Assembly: GCA_028753945.1 (NCBI GenBank)
Contig: JAPNXP010000004.1
Coordinates: 2,666,001-2,730,000 of the forward strand
Direction of reading: 5' to 3'
Length of the DNA: 64,000 nucleotides
Origin: Hexactinellida sp. DTS-2022
Taxonomy: Eukaryota; Porifera; Hexactinellida
Shown: positions 1 through 64,000 of the stretch, in pieces
Layout of the letters: each line of letters begins with the position of its first letter
How positions within the stretch are numbered: position 1 is the stretch's first letter
Position numbers and translations under genes: made by a program
Notes under the pieces: generated by a model
Seen by the model: the letters and a program-made list of their open reading frames with translations, nothing else
Databases searched by the model: none
What the model was told of the DNA's origin: nothing

Positions 1-1930
1 TATGACACGCCTCCAGACCTTCTTCTGAGAATGATTTCATCCCTCTACCATCATTGTACTCTTCAATCAATTGAGCAGCATGAGCTAGTACCTTATGCAA
101 GGTAGGAGTGATACTAACCCAAGGAAATGTTACGATTATTGATTCGTAAGTATCTCTACACAATGTTGTAAATTTTTCGATATCGATTCGCTCGTCACAG
201 TTAAATACACGCAGTATAACAGCTAAATTTGTGTATATAATGTTGAGTGGAATGTGATATTCACAAGGAATTAACGTTGTGATCCAGTAAAAAAAATCCT
301 TCTTATTATCGTCCATTCGTTGAAAGCAACTCCGAGCCACATTTCCTGTCGAAGTTGTACCTCCTTGAGTAGAAGGACAGTCTATTTTAATGTGTATATT
401 TTCCCAGAGGAAGCTACGGACAAACACCATTGATTGACGAACTTTGGCTTTGGATGGTGCCCATTTTTTCTCTCCAGCTTGTAAATGGTATACCAGTTGC
501 ATAAACCATCCAAATATTCTCAAGTATCCATGGAGAGGGGAAACTGAGAGAATATTTTCATCTGATATGGGTTTATGTGTAATTCCAAATCTGTCTTTGC
601 TCGAAAGAGAAAGAAATTCTTCTTCATCGGTGTCTTCAAATATCTCAAATGCAGAATCAATTGAACGGTTAATAGGGAAACCCTGCTTAATAAGATCAAT
701 ATCCTTCAATTGATCTCGAGTTGATGTGCATAAGTGGCAAGATGCTCCACCTGCTCCGTCTAAGATAGATGCTATTTTAGTATCAAATAAGCACCTTGTG
801 AGCTCGATATTAACATTTCCAGCTGTTAATTGGATTCCATCTACCTTTAAACTTTTAGTAGCAGGATTAATTATAGAATCCATTAAATACTTATCGCTAT
901 CTTCGCTTTCACCTAATGCCAATATGGCAACTGGTCTCATAGAAAAAGGGGAATTTGGAGAAGGGTTCGTCCATAAAGTGTTCCCTAAAGAATCTTTTAG
1001 CCAGAGTATTTTAAATGCGAACAAGAGAAAACATTTAGTTGTGAGGTCTGGATGATTTTGCATTTGGTTGAAACCGTGTGTGATCCTGAGCCATCTAAAC
1101 CATCAGTTAGCTTTGCGGTAAGAGGATAATTAGCATTTTCAGATATTTCCCCCTCAACTATCTGGCGAATTGTTTGCGCTACGATCAATTTGTAAGGAAG
1201 GTAGATACCAACTGGAGTGCCAAGGTCTTTGTGAAAATATTTCATTTCATTTACTAAACAGTTGTCCTGACGAAATGTGGCAACTCTGTTGTAAGATGCG
1301 ATTAAAATATTATCTTGCTGTAAAAAACGTCTCAATTCCCGATACTTGAGTTTCCCAATTGAAAGAAAATCCAATAAGAACAAGGAATTTCTATCAGACA
1401 GGGATGTATTGTTCAGTTCTCCATACGTTCCCTTCTCAACAATTTCTTTGCAAACTCCAATGGTAGTATAATCCTTTTCTTCATTGGAAATTAGCATGAG
1501 ACATAAAGATGCCACTGTCTTTGGTGTAACTTCCTCAAGTTCAGCTATGGACTTTATGTGTGTCAATAGTGACACGAGTCGGTGTCTAAGTTGTTGAAGG
1601 TGTAACTTTAGAAGTGGCGTTCGGATTTCTTTATTGGAATCAAGTTCAAACATGAGTTTTGGCGTCGGCTCAGTTGAGAAATCGGATGACTTACGCTTCT
1701 TCAAGCTCGATGTCTGAGTAAATGGAATATTAATGAAGTGCATTAGTTCCCAACTCCCTATATCACCATTCTGCACAAATTTTCTTCTAGTGTCCTTGAG
1801 ATGCATTAACTTAGAACGTATGCTAGGTAATTCTGTCTCGGTAATTGGGACTCGTAGAGTATTTGTTCTGACGCTTCACGAGTATTGTTGTTGCAGGATT
1901 CGAGAATGTTATATGCTTGAATATTGTTCA
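1..1930 (-). pseudogene. RAG1-like (RAG1/Transib superfamily) transposase, copy 1, window-truncated
   Basis: DDE recombinase of the RAG1/Transib type, which cuts and pastes its own transposon in the nucleus. Read on the minus strand the protein runs from about 1,900 down to base 1. Seen: an N-terminal part (997-1806) ending in AKLTDGLDGSGSH (about 1,075-1,115), then NPSPNSPFSMRPVAILALG (about 905-960), LFDTKIASILDG (about 755-790), the zinc-type CHLCTSTR (about 718-739), HKVLAHAAQLIE (62-97) and SEEGLEACH (2-25). These follow, in order, RAG1's DGMGD, YDEKL (catalytic D708), CTLCDATR (C727/C730), HKTLAH (H937/H942) and SEGNESGNK (catalytic E962). So both zinc pairs and all three acidic positions are present; which D of TDGLDG is the first catalytic Asp is ambiguous. 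A frameshift at about 1,076-1,080 makes GSH continue as GFNQMQN in another frame; a further break near 1,870 separates NNNTREASEQ. The C-terminal end lies left of the window. Confidence 0.85.
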
Positions 1931-2591
1931 TGTTTTCGTTATAACTAATAGATTTAGAACTACCCAAAATAAATCAACACAGTTTAATTATAATTTAAAA
2001 GCAACAACATTAATTTACTGAAATAATAGCTTGCAGAATTGATGTAATTTTAGTCCGAAAGACAACTTAGAATTTGTGTAAAAAAATCTGCACGGATTTG
2101 TCAATTAGCAATAAGATATAACATTAAGAGAATTAGCTCAAGAATTAAGTAGAATAATTGTCTGGGTTGTACAAATTGGGCCATAGAAGATCGAACTCTA
2201 AGAGTAGGTGATTATGTTATTATAACTTTATTAGAATTAGTTTTATAAAAAGCAGTGAGATTCTGAAAGCATTAGAAAAAGAGTTGTGATAAATAACATG
2301 ATGGAAACTAGACAAAATTTGACTGTATATAGTTTACGTACCCAACTTGAAAGCTAAATACATATTTTAGATGAGTTGATGGAACTTTATAGGTTTTCTA
2401 AAATCGAAATTATGCATAGAAACCATACATGATAATTGGAACTCAAACACAGTTATTTTAATTGACAGAAGGAATTTGGCTAAAGGAATTATATTTCAAT
2501 GAAAGTTAGATATCCAGAATTCAATAGGAAAAGTTAGGAGCAAATCGACGGACTCCAAAATTTTAGCTAATACGACTGATTTGCCCACTGT
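1931..2591 (-). mobile_element. 5' flank and outer terminus of RAG1-like element copy 1
   Basis: Noncoding AT-rich DNA between the start of the RAG1-like frame and the putative element end. The last 40 bases (about 2,553-2,591) match the corresponding place beside copy 2 (about 29,487-29,524), and similarity stops there in both copies. Read inward the end begins CACAGTGGGCAAATCAG. Its first seven bases equal the V(D)J recombination-signal heptamer and resemble known Transib/ProtoRAG ends. The next five bases outward are TAACG, the expected place of a 5-bp target duplication, but the other end is outside the window. Confidence 0.6.
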
Positions 2592-2596
2592 GTAAC

Positions 2597-3140
2597 GTTG
2601 GGTTCAATTATAATTTTCAACTACAGTTACAATTACAATTTTAAGGATTTGTGTTTTCCAATACAATTACAATTACAATTATACTTATTTGTGTTTTCAG
2701 TTACAATTACAATTACTATGTCAAAAAAGTAAATTAATTACTATTTTAATTGAACCCAATCCTATGAGTAGGTCGATGGCATCATTGCTGACTACTGAAT
2801 GCTCAATATTACGTATTTACCCTTATGATTACAAAGAGAAGCCATTTATTAATGTAAAATTAACCCCGTATTAGAAGTCTAGCAAAAATGTCAAGCCAGG
2901 TCATACTGGTGTCTGATAATTTATATTAATAAATAATTATCACTAGAAAACGTGTAATCGACAATTTTTAAGAACTAATTATTACAATCAAAATTTCCAA
3001 AATGTATTGATGCTTTTTAATTACAATTACAATTACATTATAGGGATTTGTGTTTTTCAATTACAATTACAATTACAATTATTTCAAAAACATAATTAAT
3101 TGTAATTGAATTAATTACAATTATAATTGAACCCAACCCT
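2597..3140. repeat. MITE-like block built of AATTAC words
   Basis: The block opens with GTTGGGTTCAATTATAA near 2,608 and closes with AATTGAACCCAACCC near 3,135, an inverted pair. A second closing copy sits near 2,745-2,763, so two overlapping or nested elements are likely. The interior is CAATTACAATTA iterations separated by GGATTTGTGTTTT. The ends resemble the CAGGGTTGGGTTC terminus of the element at 59,329. No clean target duplication was found. About 2,765-2,990 is non-iterated filler. Confidence 0.5.
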
Positions 3141-4180: not shown

Positions 4181-4256
4181 GATGAGATGATAATAATGAT
4201 TAATAATTAATGCATATCTATACTATTAGAACACAATTAATCTTTATATATATATA

Positions 4257-4580
4257 CAGTACACCCTCGCTAATCCGAACAGAGGTGTTCAGATTCAAGA
4301 ATCTTCTGTTCCGATTAGTGAATTCGTTCGGATTAGTGAAGTAATGCTTTTCTCATCTATAATTGAGAATCTCGATAATCTGAAACACTCTTGTACAAAC
4401 CTTGTAATCCGCACTAGACATCTAGTGTACTCCTTATAATACTTGCCTGAGACATATTTTTTACACTTCCATTGCAATTTACGATTTTTTCTCACATTTA
4501 TTGGAAGAATATTTTGGTATCTCCTGTTCGGATTAGCGAGTGTACGGATTAGCGGGGTTCGGATTAGCGAGGGTGTACTG
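4257..4580. mobile_element. pogo/Tigger-type MITE
   Basis: A 324-bp element starting CAGTACACCCTCGCTAATCC and ending in its inverted copy, flanked by TA on both sides, as expected for pogo/Tc1-mariner insertions. Several imperfect copies of TTCGGATTAGCGAG lie inside both ends. It has no transposase; frames inside it (for example 4,295-4,495) are not genes. Confidence 0.8.
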
Positions 4581-4584
4581 TATA

Positions 4585-5830
4585 TCTATATTATTAAATC
4601 TCGATTGTTGTGTGTGTGTTTGTGTGTTTGTGTGTTTGTTTGTCCGGATTGTATTAAAGTGACGGGGGTTAGAAACCGCATTAATATATGAGATCTAAAT
4701 TAACTTTCAAATGTTATAATTGGTAACAAATACTATAATAGGTGAACAAGTATGCTGAAAACGAATTTCGCATTTATAAATTTCTAATATGAATATTTGT
4801 TGTTGTTGTTTACACAAAAAGGTAAACAAATTAGTGAAAATTCAAATCAAACCAGAAGTTAGCTTTCAACGGGTATTATAGGTAAACAAGTATGCTGATT
4901 TCGAATTTCGCGTTTATAAATTTATAATATGACTATTTGTTGTTGTTGTTTACACAAAAAGGTAAACAAATTAGTGAAAATTCAAAATCAAACCAGAAGT
5001 TAGCTTTCAACGGGTATTATTGGTAAACAAGTATGCTGATTTCGAATTTCACGTTTATAAATTTATAATATGACTATTTGTTGTTGTTGTTTACACAAAA
5101 AGGTAAACAAATTAGTGAAAATTCAAAATCAAACCAGAAGTTAGCTTTCAACGGGTTTTATAGGTAAACAAGTATGCTGATTTCGAATTTCACGTTTATA
5201 AATTTATAATATGACTATTTGTTGTTGTTGTTTACACAAAAAGGTAAACAAATTAGTGAAAATTCAAATCAAACCAGAAGTTAGCTTTCAACGGATATTA
5301 TAGGTAAACAAGTATGCTGATTTCGAATTTCGCGTTTATAAATTTCTAATATGAATATTTGTTGTTGTTGTTTACACAAAAAGGTAAACAAATTAGTGAA
5401 AATTCAAATCAAACCAGAAGTTAGCTTTCAACGGGTACTATAGGTAAACATGTATGCTGATTTCGAATTTCGCGTTTATAAATTTCTAATATGAATATTT
5501 GTTGTTGTTGTTTACACAAAAAGGTAAACAAATTAGTGAAAATTCAAATCAAACCAAAAGTTAGCTTTCAACGGGTATTATTGGTAAATAAGTATGCTGA
5601 ACACGAATTTCGCATTTATAAAATTATAATATGAGTATTTGTTGTTGTTGTTGTTGTTGTTGTTTACACAAATAGGTAAACACATTAATGAAAATTCAAA
5701 ATCATGACGTCCCTTGCAACCATTTCCCATGGTAGAAAGTGTGAGGAGTATGGCCGCACAGCGGTCGTTAACTTGAGGTGCGTAGCACCGATCTGTCGCA
5801 ATGCGACCGAGACCGAAGGGCTCGTATATA
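4585..5830 (+). mobile_element. Helentron/Helitron-like nonautonomous element carrying a satellite
   Basis: The left part has TATATTATTAAATCTCGA followed by a (TG/TTTG)n stretch and TTTGTCCGGATTG, a layout typical of Helentron-type 5' regions. A tandem array follows. The right part (about 5,735-5,830) holds short GC-rich hairpins such as GGTGCGTAGCACC and a GACCGAAGGGCTCG tail, repeated near 7,355-7,376. No Rep/helicase gene is present. Family assignment is from layout only. Confidence 0.45.
4735..5700. repeat. 140-bp satellite array, seven units
   Basis: GTATGCTGA recurs at about 4,750, 4,890, 5,031, 5,172, 5,312, 5,452 and 5,592, giving a period of 140-141 bp. Each unit holds GGTAAACAAGTATGCTGA, a (TTG)n run and GAAAATTCAAATCAAACC. 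Units differ by a few substitutions; the last has an expanded (TTG)n. Confidence 0.92.
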
Positions 5831-25450: not shown

Positions 25451-26035
25451 TGCTTTACACAGTCTATACCTCTGGAAAGCTAAATGTGATCACCTAATCT
25501 GAATTCAGTTAACAAATTCTATAGAAATGACATCTTAAAAGTGAACATAGGATTTTTGGTGGATTTTTAGCCATGTTGGGTTATTTGATTTGCTTGGGAT
25601 GGAATTTTTAGAGGCCTTTTGGCAGCTACCTTTTCAATCTTGTGAATACACAATTAAATCATGATGTAGCTTCGTTAGACAATGTATGATAAGTTACTAC
25701 TTGAGGTATAATTCAATGTGGATAAAAACTGGTACATCAGCGGTCATAGGTATTTAGGTGCATGATAGAGGTACTAAATGCATTATTTGTCTATGGATTG
25801 TAACCTATAACAAATTGATTGACCACAATTTTTTGGTATGGTTTCTATTTTAAGGTTATGATGACTTAGCATAACTTTAAATTTTAAAACCCAAAATATT
25901 TTATTACTATCAGCGATCTTTTTGGATCATTTATACTAGTAGCATGTGTCCACATAAAGATTACAGATAAGCGAGTTACATTTAATTTTCCGCTTTCTAA
26001 CATAACACTATTATGCTTTATGAAATGAACTACAG
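25451..26035. other. Noncoding sequence 3' of RAG1-like copy 2
   Basis: No open frame on either strand resembles RAG2 or a kelch-repeat protein. A CACAGTC heptamer-like word at 25,458 does not continue into the terminus sequence seen at the other side, so the 3' end of the element is not placed. Confidence 0.4.
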
Positions 26036-26334
26036 TTGAATGATCACACAAAACAAGACTTTCAAATAGTTGTTCGTTTTAGAAATATATTCCACTTATT
26101 TTTAGCAGCTTTGCTAAATAAGCTTTCTTTGAGAGAACAAGAAGAAATCAGACTGGGAAATGAGACGGAGGAATACTTCTTTGAGGTTCGCTTCGAAAGA
26201 TATCTTTCTGGCCAATTGTTCACGGTAGCCTTTGTGACAAGCCTCAAAGCCTTCTTCAAAAGGATTTGAAACATCTGCCTCCATTGAACTGTTCAATCAG
26301 TTGGGCACTATGAGCTAACATAGTGTAAAGTAGG

Positions 26335-26624
26335 CACGGTACGTGGTATACCGATGGTATAATTAGGTATAACCAATTATACCAAATTAGTGTCTAGTTT
26401 CGGTATATCACCTTATGCTTAATAATTATTAAATTTTATCTAGATTACACCTAGATTATACCAATATTATACCACAATATACCACGTATATTTCGAGTAT
26501 TTAAGGTAGTATAGATGTAGGTATATTAAATGTGTAATGGAAGTTTAGAATATTATACCGAACAATTTCTAATTGGGTATAATTAATTATGCCTAATTAT
26601 ACCATCGGTATACCACATACTGTG
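26335..26624. mobile_element. 290-bp hAT-type MITE in RAG1-like copy 2
   Basis: TIRs read CACGGTACGTGGTATACC and, at the other end, CACAGTATGTGGTATACC, extending about 38 bp with three mismatches. Exact 8-bp duplications AAAGTAGG lie at 26,327-26,334 and 26,625-26,632. Copy 1 supplies the uninterrupted sequence (CAAGGTAGGAGTGATAC). The interior is rich in GGTATAATTAGGTATAA words. Confidence 0.92.
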
Positions 26625-27370
26625 AAAGTAGGAGTAATACTCGCCCAAGGAATGTTTCAACAATTAGCTGATATGTATCTTTACATAATGTGGATAGTTT
26701 ATCGCTGTCGATAAGCTCATCAAGTTTAATATTTGCAATATTACTGCTAAATTTGTGTATATTACAGGGGATTAAAGTGATAATCCGGTAAAAAATCCTT
26801 TTACTATAATAAAATCGTTGAAAACAGCTACGAGCTACATTGCCTGTTGAAGTCGTAACTCCTTGATTAGAAGAACAATCAATCTGGATACTTAATTTCT
26901 CCGACAGGAAACTACGTACAAATTCCATAGACTGACGAATCTTTGGTGAAGTTGGTCTCCATTTTTTCTCTCCAGGTGTATGACCCAAATCCATCTAAAC
27001 CCTCAACCAGTTTCGCCTTCAGAGGTTAATTGGCCGTATCAATTGCTTCAATTTCAACAATTTTCCGAATGGTTTGGGCAACAACACTCGGTATGGAATG
27101 CACTAGATTCCAATAGGTGTTCTATGGAAATATTGCATTTCATTGACTAGACATGATTCCTCACGAAATTTGGTGACTTTGTTATACGACGATATGTAAC
27201 GTTGTCTTCTTTTAAAATCGTCTCAACTCTCTGTACTTTACTTTCCCGATGGAAGGAAAATCTAAGAGAAATGATGAGTTCCTTTCCCATAACAAGGAAT
27301 TATGTTCCAGATAAGTCCCCTTTTCGACAATTTCCTTGCACACATTAATGGTAGCACACCCCTTTTGTGG

Positions 27371-28120
27371 AACTTAGATAGGATCGACTGGAATAAGATC
27401 GACCCATTTCCACGTCTAGAATAACATCGACCGGAATAAGATCGACCCATTGCCACTACTGGAATAAGATCGACCAATTGCCACGACTGGAATAAGATCG
27501 ACCTATTGTCACGACTGGAATAAGATCAACCCATTGTCACGACTGGAATAAGATCGACCCATTTTCACGACTGGAATAAGATATTATTATTTCGATCTTA
27601 CTGCAGCACTCTGATACATTAGGTATAGCTTCATCTAAGAGATCAGTGAATGTACTACTTTAGATCAATATCAGATTAACAATAGGTCGTTCTTATTCTA
27701 GACGTGAAAATGATCCATAATACACATCAAAAGAGCCTGGGTTTTATCATGAGCCATAATACACACCAAATGAGCCTGGGTTTATCATGAGCCATAATAC
27801 ATATCAAAAGAGCCTATCTTATTCTATACGTGAAAATGAGTCAGCTTATTCCAGTCGTGGCAATGTGTCGATCTTATTCCGTTCGATCTTATTCCAGTCG
27901 TGGCAATGGGTCGATCTTATTCTAGACGTGAAAATGGGTCGATCTTATTCCGGTCGATCTTATTCCAGTCGTGGAAATGGGACGATCTTATTCCAGTCGT
28001 GGCAATGGGTCGATCTTATTCCGGTCGATCTTATTCTAGACGTGAAATGGGTCAATCTTATTCCGTTCGATCCTATTCCATTAGATAAATTCAGAGGTTG
28101 ATCCTATCCAGTCAACCCAT
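27371..28120. mobile_element. Foldback-type element made of 28-bp iterons
   Basis: The left arm (27,380-27,590) is a run of GGAATAAGATCGACCCAT plus TGCCACGACT units, about 28 bp each. The right arm (27,830-28,115) holds the same units inverted. The middle has three direct copies of ATCATGAGCCATAATACA. CCTTTTGTGG on the left and CCTTTTCTTCGTGG on the right look like a duplicated target; copy 1 has one such site. No protein is encoded; the apparent ORFs are periodic translations of the iterons. Confidence 0.8.
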
Positions 28121-28505
28121 CCTTTTCTTCGTGGCAATTAACTGAAGGCACAAGGATACAATACCTTTTGCGAAACTTCCTCAAGCTCAGCTAGCGATTT
28201 ATTCTGTGTCAATACAGAGTCGAGGCGGCGTATGATTTGTTCAAACTGTAACTTAAGAAGTGGTGTTCGGATTTCTAGATTTTCATCAATTTCGAAAACA
28301 ACTCGTGCATAGATTCCCTTAAGAAATCTGAAGACTTTCGTTTTTCCAAGACCACGGACTTAGGGTGAGGATTATCAGTATTGTGCATTCTTTCCCATGT
28401 TGTTAATACCCCACTCTTCACAAAATCTCGTCTGTTGTTCTTGAATTGTATTAATTTCGAACGGATGAATGTTAATTCTGTTTCATGGCAGGCATGGGGC
28501 CAAGC

Positions 28506-49313: not shown

Positions 49314-50447
49314 TTATAATCTCAATTTCCTTTGATTTTTCGGTAGTGGTTCTTCCAACTTAACTCTCTTTGGTCTAGGAATTAAAGGATTCCTTATTCT
49401 GGAGATCTCAAAATTTGAATCCTGTAATTTCTCAAATGCTTTAGCTACTTTACTTTTGTTCGGATTAATGTAACTATTTTTCTTATTTTTCCTCCTTCGC
49501 CAAATTTCTATAGATTCTTCCTCGTTACTAACCTCTCTAACTTTTTTCTTAGCCTTAAATACTCTATGAGCCCTTGGTTGAAATGCGAATTTAAAGGAAG
49601 CCAATCTATCTTCTATATGTCCAAAAATGTGACGTACAAAATCACCAACTCTGATATTAACTTGAGATGTAAATATGGAGTGTTTTACTATTTTAAACCA
49701 ATTCTCAATTTGTGCATTGCTATCAGTTGAAACAGCATTGACTTGTACTTTGCTTAGTATAATCCCACTCCAAAGAGGAAGCAATGGCATATAATAAGTT
49801 AACAAATATTCAAGTATTTTGGGATAATAGCATACATTTTTATCATTTGCAAGTACTTTATGTCCTAGAAATTTGAAGGTGGCTTTTAAGTACAATTCTT
49901 CAAAGTATTTACCAAAAGGAGACGTTTTTCTATAAGTATCACTTTCAATATTTTCAGGGTAATCATCAATAAAATAGTATTCTGAACTATAAATTTTGAG
50001 ATCTCCCTTAACTAATTCTTCTAGTCTAATGAGCTCTTAGTAACCTGAGGCAACATTCATTCAGTGTTCAGAACAATACACAAAGATTCAAAAACAAGAT
50101 TTATTTCTTCCATATTGCTACTTTTACCATAGCACCAAATGAATGTAGCACTAAGCATTTACCTTTTTGTGTATTTTTTACTTCTTATCCAATTTGTAGC
50201 TTATTTGATGCATAATATGTGCCGAACAAAGATGCAAAACAGTTGGAATGGTTAATTTGGTGCTAGTTTTGTCGCTTACAATATCCCAACATTTACACAA
50301 ATATAGTGCTATACTCAGTTTATTAAATGCTAAACTTGCGCTTTGCATTATGGCCCAACTATAGTCCATTTCAATTTGGTCGATATTTAGACCCTTATTT
50401 AGAATTGCCTTACAAGTTAATACCCATTTATTCAAAAAATGGGTCAC
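49314..50447 (-). pseudogene. Transposase of MULE-like element B
   Basis: Minus strand. First frame (50,178-50,447): QIEMDYSWAIMQSASLAFNK, then TVLHLCSAHIMHQISYKL, resembling the acidic D/E-rich and C-x2-H blocks of MULE-type DDE transposases. After a gap with stops: LEELVKGDLKIYSSEYYFID (about 49,970-50,030). Second frame (49,314-49,895): YYMPLLPLWSGIIL, NAQIENWFKIVKHSIF, GDFVRHIFGHIEDRLASFKF, then a basic tail (RRRKNKKN, IPRPKRVK). Assignment to MULEs rests mainly on the 9-bp duplication and long TIRs of the element; the protein family itself I know only from uncharacterised relatives. Two or more frameshifts. Confidence 0.68.
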
Positions 50448-50449
50448 AG

Positions 50450-52510
50450 TGGTTTATTTGGATCATTCACCGGAATTAGGTATTTCCAGAGCAGATAGCC
50501 TGTCAAATGTATTATATACCCATGGGTTATCTATACCTGTGAATCCATTTATGGACTCAGAAAATTAGTACGGCTTCAAATTTTTAAGTTATGACGTCAT
50601 AGTATTTTTATTCCCATAGTTCTACAAATATTTACTAAATTAGTATTTTATAATAAACTAGAGCTAATTCATTTATATGCATCTCTAAATAAATGCATGG
50701 TGTAGATATATATTAAGTTGATGATGTAATTCGAGAGCCTAGGCCAGTTGAATAACCAGCTTTTTAAACATCAACGATTCGACAAGTTTTTCTTGAACAA
50801 ATTTTGGCATTTGATCACCCTTGCATTTTCCAGGGGCGTGTTGGCCATACATGGCAGGCGGGAATCCCGAAAAATTTTTCGGGCCCTTTTGGAAAATAAT
50901 CCCGCCTGGGCCCCTTGGACCCAGCATGCATCTGGCATTTTCTATTACATTACAGTAACCCGTATAGTTTCCTTGGTTGAAAGGTAATCCCACGCTTCTA
51001 AATTATTCATTTAGTTTACTATTTGATGAAATTTACTTAACTTCAAAGACCCGTATATAGACAAATAGATTTTGGTTTGCGCGCGGTGCGCGGGGCTGGA
51101 AAGTGGTTAAAATTCAAGCTATATAGTTAAACTTTATATAAAAATAGGGCTAATAAAATGACACGAGACGACACTACAAGTTTTCGCAATACCAATACAT
51201 GGAATTTAGCAGTTCGGACACTTCCAGGTAATCATAATTTGCAATGATAATTATACTAAGGATAAATAATTCTATGAAGAGTATTCAACAGTTTTAGGAT
51301 GATTTAAACTATAATTAAATACTGTGAAAGTATTAGCTGATTGTGATAGAAGCCTAATGAGATACACGAGCATGAAATGATGCATAATAGTTAACCACAA
51401 AATTTCTTCAATTTTATTTAGCCATTTAACGTAGGTTCTCGATTATGCTGAACACGATAAAAATGTTTTTGAAGAGATCAGAATAGGTAAAAATTGTCCA
51501 ACTCCCTGTCAATAAACCACTGTGCATGGGTGATCTCTGCAGTTCCATGATCACTACTGATCATTTCTGCAACAGGAAGAGGACTAGTACAGTATACAGG
51601 GTGTTATAGTGTAAGAGCATAGTAATAGATCGACTTTTACACATTGGTGGCCTTTTAAAAATGGAACCAGTTGCATCTATATTAATAACGGTGTTGTCAT
51701 TTTTGAATAATTATAATATTTAAATCTGCTTTTTTGTATATAAATGGATTATAAATGGATCTTGTGCAATATATTGGACATAACCAGGTATCAGATTATC
51801 TGGTAATACCGAACGGAAATACTGTTGAGTTTCCCAAATATCCACAGTATCATCATTGGAAAATGTCTCTCTAGATTTAACGTCTGACTTAAACCGTCTT
51901 AAAGTTTGCTGTGATATTAAATTAGTGAAATTCCAACTATTGAATGCCTACATTGTTCTCATATCTAAACTGCTGATGAAATATGTTACTTGCTGTGTTT
52001 TGAATCAATTTTGCACCCATGTTTACCTTTTTTCCGAAGCAATGTGACGTGCATGGATGGTTTTATCATCTTTGTGTTCAGATGAAAGTTCACCGTTACA
52101 TTTATAGTGCACAGCTATTAGATCATCAGCAAATGAGGCAATATCATTATTAATTGAAAAGGTAACTGAGCAGCAGTTAGAAAACTTACACACAGCCCAA
52201 CTTGAAAAAAAGGGGAGTTCAATTCCTACTATCCTTTTTCTTAAACCAAAAATGTTTAAACTTCAGTACGCAAATCGAATTTATTTGAGAGAACTTATCA
52301 GTTATTACATTAGTCCAACCTGTTTTCATATGATCTATATCATCCTTATCTAAATAACTTATAGCATTTCAATCAGCCTTATCTAGATAAAACTCGCCAA
52401 ATGTTGGAAAAAAATTGCATCATAAGTGCTGTATTCGTTTGCTCTAGAAATTGGACATTCTATATGACCACTATCACTATTTTCAATTTCACCGACTTTA
52501 TCTGCTGCCT
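50450..52510. other. Noncoding interior of element B
   Basis: A GC-rich palindromic patch at 50,829-50,945 (CAGGCGGGAATCCCGAAAAA facing AATCCCGCCTGGG, beginning CAGGGGCGTGTTGGCC) looks like a hAT-type MITE end. GCGCGCGGTGCGCG lies at about 51,079. Nothing else is recognised. Confidence 0.45.
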
Positions 52511-60699: not shown

Positions 60700-62880
60700 A
60701 TATAATTATATACGCTGCTGTTCAGGTCAGGCAGTGTAGTTTCCGTATCGATGTCCGTATAGTGGGAGACTTTGGTGCCCGCACAATCTCACACTTTCAA
60801 CACAGCCTTGAGGCCGGCCACAGTGGGCAAACCATGGGAAATAGAGTTATTTGTCAACACCCTTGGATTACGAACTTTAATATTTTTTCAGATTCACCAT
60901 TGTTTCAAACCTAGAAATACTAATTTTCCGAAGTCATATACTATCAGGGTAACGAATTATATGTATTGGGATGACTGATCTAAATATATTTTCTATCTAT
61001 AATTCTGTTGTGATATTAAGATCGAAATCAAACTTGTACGATTTATACCCATATGATGATTCATACTATCAATATGTAATTTATATCAAGACTCAAGACT
61101 GTAACTTCTTGATGTCATTGCTATAAATACAATTTCATTGTGGAATTGAAGCTAAATTTACAATATCTTATGGAAGGATTTATGAATTTCGGACGGAAAT
61201 TTATTTGGCATTTTGGTTCAAAAACATTAGGTGCTCGGTCGTGGTCACATATTCTAATGCTTTTAAATGTTGCATAGACATATTAGCAAAATATTTATAT
61301 TAGTTTGGCATCCTCCCAAACCCGCCTCGGAAATGATTTTTTAATTTATCATTGTCCCCTCAGAAAATTCATATAATGTAAATTGAATTTCTCCACTATT
61401 TTCCAATTAATTTAGTTTTTTTTCCATTAACTGATAGTGATACTGAATAACAAAGCATTTTATGATATTTTAATGTCAATTCTTTCGATCAGCATACCAA
61501 GTTAGAAATTCATCCATGCTATGGAATTTCAGTAAATAATTTTATGAGATCCGGAAGAAATTTAGGCGCTAGCAATGTTGCATATTATACAACTATGCTA
61601 CCTAAAACTATCTAGGGTTTCCTAAGAGTAATTGCACCTGCGATAGTTACACTCAACATCCATCTACCCTTTCTATAAATTCAATGAGATATAGAATACC
61701 TGGGATAAGACTAACATTTCAATTATTTTACCCAAGTTTAAGATGTATTATCAATGATCATGGCTATTATATGACTGTTATAAAACCAAAAATATAATAA
61801 ATAATGAATTTACCATTGATCGTACAAAACTACTGTTAGGAGACTACATGTATCATTTTTTATGATGCCATTCGGTTTGCAGCTACCTATAACCTATATG
61901 TCAATAATACTTCATTAGAGCTATCTAGCATAGTTTTTCCAAAAAAACTCTATCATTTACAGTAATATTGGCGATGTTAATTGCAATTTCGGCACCACGG
62001 TGGATACCACATTTATTGTGCTTCTTGATATCATCACGACCCTTCTTGAAATTGTTCCAGCCATTAAACTTATATTTCCAAGGAGGGGCATATGCACACA
62101 CAAATTCATGTCAACAGATATTAGGCAACATTGACGAAATGTCTAATTGCCTAATTACAACTGATTTAGTGTAAAAACTTATTTTTCTGCCAAATAAAAT
62201 CCTCAAACCAATTCTTCTCAATAGAAAGAACACTTCCGGATTTTCGCATGGGAATAAAAAGTCCTTCAATATAATATCTTTTTGGAATAGGTAGTTCGAT
62301 TGGAACTATCTGTTCAGCATATAAAGTGGATGGTCCGCTAAATTAGAAGATTTCATAGGTTTTTTGGAGAGGAATAGTGCAATGCATTCCTCTTCTCGCG
62401 TTCTTATCCTACATTGTACTAGACTGGTTATATTCATCTTGTAAATTGCGAAATGAATAATCCACTTAGTTACACATTTGACATATCATTGTGAAAAACT
62501 AACGACAATTTCAATTTACAAATCCTCAGTTAGGTTTCCTCAAAACACCTGCGTTGAATAGGTTTCACAAATTTGGGATTTTCTTATTTCGATTATTATT
62601 TCGATCGGTTTAATTTCCTTCAAATAGTACTCAGGATTCGTGTTATATATATTTAACTACACATTGGAGTAAAAACTATGTACCCACCACCAAATTCTAC
62701 GCTTATTCTATGTACGATGTTATTATTATTTAACTTTCTTAATTTGCCAACTCTTAATATTATTTTATTTTATTTACTTTCCAATTCCAGTTTATTTTAA
62801 AAGCGCCATTTTGATTTCTTTATCTTAAGAAACTCTTGGCACGTTTCTCTATACCGTAGGCATGAGTCGTTGTGAATGTA
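60700..62880. other. Anonymous AT-rich sequence
   Basis: No gene or element recognised on either strand. Frames at 60,772-60,978 and 61,968-62,174 have no known motif or repeat. Confidence 0.55.
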
Positions 62881-63758: not shown

Positions 63759-64000
63759 GAGTCTGAAAAGATGCCCCTCCAGCAGCACTTAGAAAACCGG
63801 AGATTTAGCGTAGAACATAGTTCTCTTCACTATCACGTTCACATAATCTTGCATATTTCTAAACCAACTATTTCCAGGATTCGAGTTTCTGCGGAATAAA
63901 TTTATCCATTAGGTAATGAACATTTTCCAGGAATTTTCTTGGTAAATAAATCTATTGGCCTTGTTCCAAAGGGTGAATTTGGGGAAGGATTGGTCCAAAT
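63759..64000 (-). pseudogene. RAG1-like transposase, copy 3, diverged, window-truncated
   Basis: The minus frame from the right edge reads IWTNPSPNSPFGTRPI, like copy 1 WTNPSPNSPFSMRPV, the segment before the second catalytic Asp. Downstream, broken by stops, LSAAGGASFQ corresponds to LDGAGGASCH of copy 1, with the zinc-type Cys changed. Between these the sequence is much more diverged than copies 1 and 2 are from each other, so it is probably a different subfamily. It joins a truncated MITE at 63,758. Confidence 0.65.

Follow-up and report, generated by a model that had tools for sequence, protein, structure and literature searches.

The window analysed here, a stretch of 64,000 nucleotides of a glass-sponge contig, begins within a Transib-superfamily element (copy 1, locus L001) that lies on the minus strand and continues outside the window, occupying G000:C13:2665328-2668592, i.e. 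window -672..2592. These limits follow from comparison with a second copy, L002, which is 98.4% identical to it over 3268 aligned bases: the two stop together at a terminal CACAGTG on both sides. A preliminary description of this DNA had proposed a RAG1-like element with its right end at 2591. The element is confirmed and its end lies one base further, at 2592; the motifs listed for it in RAG1 order are all present, on the minus strand between window positions 2 and 1104. The features of copy 1 and of its relatives in the window are the following:

1..2592, minus strand: in-window part of copy 1, a 3265-bp Transib-superfamily element, frameshifted
2586..2592, minus strand: terminal heptamer CACAGTG of the 5' (short-spacer) end of copy 1
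2567..2574, minus strand: inner box site of the 5' end of copy 1, CGTATTAG, a divergent form of GGAARTAG separated from the heptamer by 11 bp
1929..1931, minus strand: transposase start codon of copy 1 (MNNIQAY..., cf. MNN.EA. of intact copies)
1468..1623, minus strand: region equivalent to the RAG1 nonamer-binding domain, from profiles of relatives
1078..1104, minus strand: DGLDGSGSH block
1093..1095, minus strand: catalytic Asp corresponding to RAG1 D600 (second D in DGLDG), from alignment
944..967, minus strand: NPSPNSPF
908..910, minus strand: Glu at the RAG1 E662 position, from alignment
773..796, minus strand: stretch containing LFDTKI, with the catalytic Asp corresponding to RAG1 D708 at 782..784, from alignment
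728..739, minus strand: CHLC, zinc ligands C727/C730, from alignment
530..682, minus strand: part of the CxxC-LH stretch (alpha11-alpha12), of RAG1 length here and short in HzTransib relatives; its RAG1 counterpart binds RAG2
530..532, minus strand: His at the RAG1 H795 position, from alignment
80..97, minus strand: HKVLAH (within 77-103), zinc ligands H937/H942, from alignment
2..25, minus strand: stretch containing GLEACH, with the catalytic Glu corresponding to RAG1 E962 at 11..13, from alignment
25714..28484, minus strand: copy 2 (approximate limits), a decayed, interrupted relic near the L003 subfamily
50445..51524, no strand assigned: facing long (left) and short (right) ends, 1.08 kb, non-autonomous length, no target duplication seen
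60819..60844, plus strand: lone short-spacer end (CACAGTG, 11 bp, GGAAATAG), no partner found in the window
63944..64000, minus strand: copy 3, the edge of a fragment with residues of the N-terminal half only, extending to ~64829

The coding sequence of copy 1 changes frame between ~1077 and 1104 and again near 1870, so that its motifs are split over two reading frames and the copy is broken. The earlier suggestion that most residues needed for chemistry can still be inferred from it holds for the catalytic and zinc-binding positions, which are kept, but has to be qualified by these frameshifts. The flanks of copy 1 show no matching 5-bp duplications (cgtta versus ccaac); the sequence to the right of the element, taacgttgg, would allow a duplication gttgg separated from the end by four additional bases. 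On the right the element is adjoined by ACAATT-type repeats (window 2614-2716 and near 3006-3130). Further along, an element of ~345 bp (window 4246-4591) with near-perfect inverted ends of 35 bases (TACAGTACACCCTCGCTAATCCGAAC...) and TA-rich flanks resembles a short non-autonomous transposon from a different family, and window 4734-5652 is a tandem array of 6.6 copies of a 140-bp unit with 95% matches. At window 15933 (minus strand) there is an exact CACAGTGGGAATTTTGAGGGATGTA end of a long-type subfamily, which has lost its inner box and has no visible partner.

Sequence comparison places the family of copy 1 in the Transib/RAG1 superfamily, with HzTransib as the nearest solved relative, followed by amphioxus RAG1L and vertebrate RAG1. 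The second frame of copy 1 alone, compared by phmmer with solved structures, matched HzTransib (E 3e-16) and amphioxus RAG1L (E 5e-6), and the first frame gave no relevant match. With these values and the genomic matches counted below, the observation is no product of chance. For P0001, the 710-residue open frame of locus L024, the corresponding values were 8.2e-21 for HzTransib, 3.5e-7 for RAG1L and 1.2e-5 for RAG1, and a profile of 34 relatives reached E 1.9e-43, 4.4e-16 and 5.5e-16, respectively. These three groups thus rank first among solved structures, and neither the profile nor the single-sequence searches of such structures returned any other DDE superfamily. The proposed link to the RAG1/Transib lineage is therefore supported; the emphasis requires correction in that sequence similarity to Transib exceeds that to RAG1.

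The acidic residues of the active site align with those of both RAG1 and HzTransib, and the full set of active-site and zinc positions claimed at the outset is borne out. With RAG1 numbers obtained by adding a shift of 390, taken from the full-length chain 9jpu, to the aligned chain numbers, the counterparts in P0001 are D269 (D600), E331 (E662), D373 (D708), C388 (C727), C391 (C730), H457 (H795), H598 (H937), H603 (H942) and E626 (E962). In Pfam, two intact relatives scored marginally over the cut-off of the RAG1 family (PF12940; 26.1 and 27.4 versus 25 bits), and the two broken pieces of copy 1 had no match up to E 1. The sole NCBIfam match was irrelevant and under its cut-off.

In the genome (112.4 Mb in 18 contigs) at least 113 matches to the family were scored and 30 loci were fetched. 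A stop-free frame of at least 700 residues is present in 10 of these 30 (in L008 the frame continues into other sequence), and the pair L022/L024 shares 99.8% identity across 2784 bases. Both ends were identified in 15 loci, of which 11 have perfect 5-bp target duplications, the exceptions being L001 (the window copy), L007, L012 (4 of 5 bases) and L030. The family is large and, to judge from its sequences, recently active in what is apparently a glass sponge. Copies 2 and 3 of the window, put forward earlier as signs of a repeated mobile family, are genuine members of it, though decayed fragments. The element at L024 measures 3.08 kb and has an open frame of 713 codons, leaving ~0.9 kb; elements of ~3.1 kb with a 2.1-kb gene thus have no room for RAG2 or RAG2L. 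A genome search with the RAG2 family PF03089 was empty, which is uninformative since the control likewise matched nowhere.

At the protein level, a profile combining sponge sequences with RAG1L, scored against the 8000 candidates sharing most words with it, retrieved 97 proteins, all of the sponge clade, with no other Subgroup I Transib among them. The closest named proteins are all from the glass sponge Oopsacas minuta (8 of 49 and 11 of 97 matches carry names), in keeping with a glass-sponge host, and some of them bear the automatic name V(D)J recombination-activating protein 1. Among prokaryotes, two short peptide patterns yielded 19 stretches, none of which was confirmed as a relative; this is weak evidence of absence.

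Outside the catalytic residues, the sponge proteins differ from the HzTransib group in the stretch between CxxC and LH, which has 64 or 65 residues in 61 of the 68 measured sponge-clade proteins (100 given) and 29 residues in 109 of the 117 measured HzTransib relatives (120 given). Mouse RAG1 has 63 residues here and the amphioxus chain 59 (counted by hand, as the pattern missed it), and the sponge stretch would therefore be a zinc-binding (ZnB) stretch of RAG1 length, as judged by length and alignment only. This alpha11-alpha12 region is described as retained in Subgroup I and lost in Subgroup II Transibs (PMC9435367). After the core, some subfamilies carry a knuckle (e.g. CKRCGEIGHIRKEKC) that resembles the CTT* motif of RAG1L, given as Cx2Cx3GHx4C (PMC7204232). 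The pattern Cx2Cx3[GS]Hx(4-6)C, mostly with spacing x5, occurs in 22 of 100 sponge-type proteins, many of them cut short, and in nine of the 30 loci, in one of which it is out of frame; Cx2Cx3GH was found in none of 120 HzTransib relatives. Complete or almost complete C-termini that lack the knuckle are found in copy 1's group and in L008, L012 and L021. On the knuckle of P0001, the Pfam family zf-CCHC scored under its cut-off. In the pair L004/L005 the knuckle has SH instead of GH, and that of L005 lies in another frame after a frame change.

The N-terminal region was searched separately with six hand-picked sponge sequences, one from each of six subfamilies. Of 21 matches, the top 16 were RAG1 chains, with E values of 0.006-0.05, and the next match had E 0.16; because the 16 are near-identical proteins, they count as one modest piece of evidence for a nonamer-binding-like domain. 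The full profile aligns through this region as well and reaches the crystal structure of the nonamer-binding domain (3gna) at E 0.032. A nonamer-binding-like domain is thus detectable in the sponge family at the level of sequence similarity, and such a domain has been attributed to both Transib subgroups (PMC9435367). The transposase, of ~710 residues, is accordingly predicted to be a RAG1-core-like DDE enzyme with a nonamer-binding-like domain of RAG1 type.

In a quick tree, 48 sponge-clade rows fall together (SH-aLRT 99), as do 16 HzTransib relatives (99), and amphioxus RAG1L with mouse RAG1 forms a third group. RAG is represented here by only two rows, both long, and Subgroup I members from outside the clade are lacking, so the tree does not settle the deeper order. 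The traits listed above match those of Subgroup I and the family is filed there, with the caveat that the branch to which copy 1 belongs lacks the knuckle; this filing relies on the traits as described in PMC9435367.

The ends of the elements, which the preliminary description had not covered, add a pair of RSS-like signals. Both ends were found in 15 of the 30 loci, and all 30 ends read CACAGTG, under a search pattern that required CAC[AT][AG]TGG. With the two central heptamer bases left free, 303 of the 319 matches of the short class genome-wide were still CACAGTG, the reported RSS consensus heptamer (PMC8289069). A common inner box, GGAAATAG or GGAAGTAG, stands at position 19 in 5' ends and at 28 or 29 in 3' ends; in those loci that were read in the direction of the gene, the short end lies 5' of it; in the subfamily of copy 1 the inner 5' box is degenerate. 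Genome-wide, CACAGTGG followed by GGAARTAG after any gap of 0-30 gave 740 matches, and the reversed control gave 0. The spacer is 11 bp in 303 of the 740, 20-21 bp in 386 and of other length in 51. Among the first 100 matches listed, the lengths are 10 (3 matches), 11 (39), 19 (2), 20 (32), 21 (23) and 27 (1), and none lies between 12 and 18.

When the box was not fixed, an offset of +9 or +10 ranked first or second among alignments of the two ends in eight of nine subfamilies; L004, with a short spacer of 7 and a difference of 14, prefers +14. The 5' box of L002, L006 and L021 has diverged so far that a blind scan does not locate it at position 19. Averaged over the nine subfamilies, two offsets stand out: the 5'/3' score is 0.393 at offset 0, where the outer bases are in common, and 0.381 at +9, compared with a mean of 0.324 and a maximum of 0.393 in 2000 shuffles.

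Short and long ends occur together. All 26 pairs of facing ends less than 5 kb apart among the first 100 matches listed combine a short with a long end (one with spacer 27), as do all 17 additional pairs among the matches listed for contigs 2 and 3. Shuffling the labels gave means of 13.1 (of 26) and 8.5 (of 17), and the observed value was reached 0 times in 100,000 in either set. Of these 43 pairs, 32 are shorter than 2.2 kb and the other 11 measure at least 2.8 kb; most are thus of non-autonomous length, and their ends would be read in trans. From these patterns we infer a functional rule by which a short end is paired with a long one.

By analogy with the RAG and Transib literature, a transposase dimer would nick the DNA at the heptamers and form hairpins on the flanks, and insertion with a 5-bp stagger would follow. 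A dimer of nonamer-binding-like domains may hold the two GGAARTAG boxes, and if it sits askew it would take one short and one long end. The spacer difference of 9-10 bp is about one turn of the helix, which would leave the boxes on nearly the same face while unlike ends are joined. Productive pairing would then unite a short with a long end, in the manner of the 12/23 rule and without RAG2. Taken together, we regard copy 1 as a dead single-gene cut-and-paste Transib of the Subgroup I kind, from an expanded glass-sponge lineage that would use this short/long pairing mechanism, with a probability of about 0.8. The stronger claim, that a 12/23-type rule is alive in glass sponges in which a RAG2-less transposase, by means of its nonamer-binding domain, requires a CACAGTG end with spacer 11 together with one of spacer 20-21, is put forward tentatively, at somewhat under even odds.

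The main reading competes with a plainer account, in which this is an ordinary Transib: its boxes bind the transposase, the inequality of its ends is a frozen accident and the difference in spacer is without a role. The facing pairs are related by descent, and their constant pairing could be inherited from one asymmetric ancestor underlying all of them; moreover, symmetric Transibs that move are known (PMC8289069, PMC8355894). What makes this account rather unlikely is that length has stayed constant while sequence has not: 100 matches listed for the 11-bp class include 46 distinct spacers, with on average 39% shared at positions 2-11, and lengths of 12-18 are missing from the first 100 matches listed at any gap. 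The 32 of 43 facing pairs of non-autonomous length, with ends read in trans, also speak against it.

Descent from the RAGL (RAG1L-RAG2L) lineage, or a relict of it that lost RAG2, would be in line with the RAG1-length ZnB stretch, the Cx2Cx3GH knuckle of RAG1L type in some subfamilies and the RSS-like ends. We consider it improbable: the sequences are far nearer to HzTransib than to RAG1L or RAG1, the RAG branch is separate in the quick tree and a 3.1-kb element with a 2.1-kb gene offers no space for RAG2L; PF03089 was not found either, with the control likewise unmatched. That copy 1 might itself be a host gene domesticated from a transposon was considered because all its active-site residues are kept, and can be dismissed with near certainty, being ruled out by the two frame changes, the intact ends and the 98.4% identical second copy elsewhere.

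Searches of the literature by titles, counts and abstract starts found no published report of Transib in sponges, and no paper linking RAG1 with Hexactinellida; the two glass-sponge genome papers do not mention Transib, nor does their main text mention RAG1. As far as such searches show, what is new is the glass-sponge lineage and how large it is, strict 11/20-21 pairing of ends that carry the exact RSS heptamer, and the existence of knuckle-bearing and knuckle-less branches, both with asymmetric ends. Asymmetry as such is known: it is reported for Subgroup I (PMC9435367) and, as 12/23 cases, for Transibs of Drosophila and Anopheles (PMC8355894), and asymmetric ends have been proposed as ancestral (PMC9435367). 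Autonomous elements are stated to be present in "one or at most a few copies" (PMC4411706); contrary to that statement, the sponge genome shows Transibs at high copy number. Discrimination between spacers in vertebrates is said to need RAG2 (PMC8355894). If the pairing rule is true, both spacer-length discrimination and the exact consensus heptamer would have their origin in Transibs and would predate RAG2 as well as V(D)J recombination. For the origin of the 12/23 rule, the sponge offers as test material hundreds of natural ends, several subfamilies with and without the knuckle, and an enzyme without RAG2.

Among known systems, the closest in traits are the Subgroup I Transibs (Tao et al. 2022, PMC9435367), reported from ctenophores, Hydra and bacteria, among others; the words "sponge" and "porifera" are absent from the main text of that paper. 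As described there, they share with the sponge family a single gene, asymmetric ends, a zinc-binding stretch of RAG1 length, a nonamer-binding-like domain and, with some sponge subfamilies, a knuckle of CTT1 type (Cx2Cx3GHx4C in Subgroup I, mostly x5 in the sponge). The sponge family differs in its hundreds of ends, its spacers of 11/20-21 and its knuckle-less branch, that of copy 1. HzTransib (PDB 6pqn and related entries) and the remaining Subgroup II Transibs have in common with it the DDE core, the 5-bp target duplication and CAC-type ends, but HzTransib relatives mostly have 29 residues after CxxC versus 64-65 in most of the sponge family and lack the knuckle, and the ends of HzTransib are described as symmetric (PMC8289069), unlike those in the sponge.

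The RAGL transposons (ProtoRAG, AanRAGL) resemble the sponge elements in having a catalytic core of RAG1 type, ends that begin with a heptamer-like sequence, spacers of unequal length (27/31 in ProtoRAG and 4/13 in AanRAGL, as given in PMC8289069 and PMC9435367) and the CTT* knuckle, which in the sponge is confined to some subfamilies. They differ in carrying RAG2L and in heptamers and boxes unlike those of the sponge (in ProtoRAG CACTATG and GCCATCTTG). The difference between the two spacers is 9-10 bp in the sponge, 9 in AanRAGL (PMC9435367) and 11 in vertebrates, and the 27/31 spacers of ProtoRAG do not fit the idea of one helical turn. With vertebrate RAG1/RAG2 and its 12/23 signals, the sponge family shares the identical consensus heptamer CACAGTG, a nonamer-binding-like domain, and short and long spacers about one helical turn apart. 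The vertebrate nonamer ACAAAAACC, however, has no resemblance to the sponge box GGAARTAG, the spacers are 12/23 versus 11/20-21, and the vertebrate system is a recombinase locus with RAG2, whereas that of the sponge is a transposon without it.
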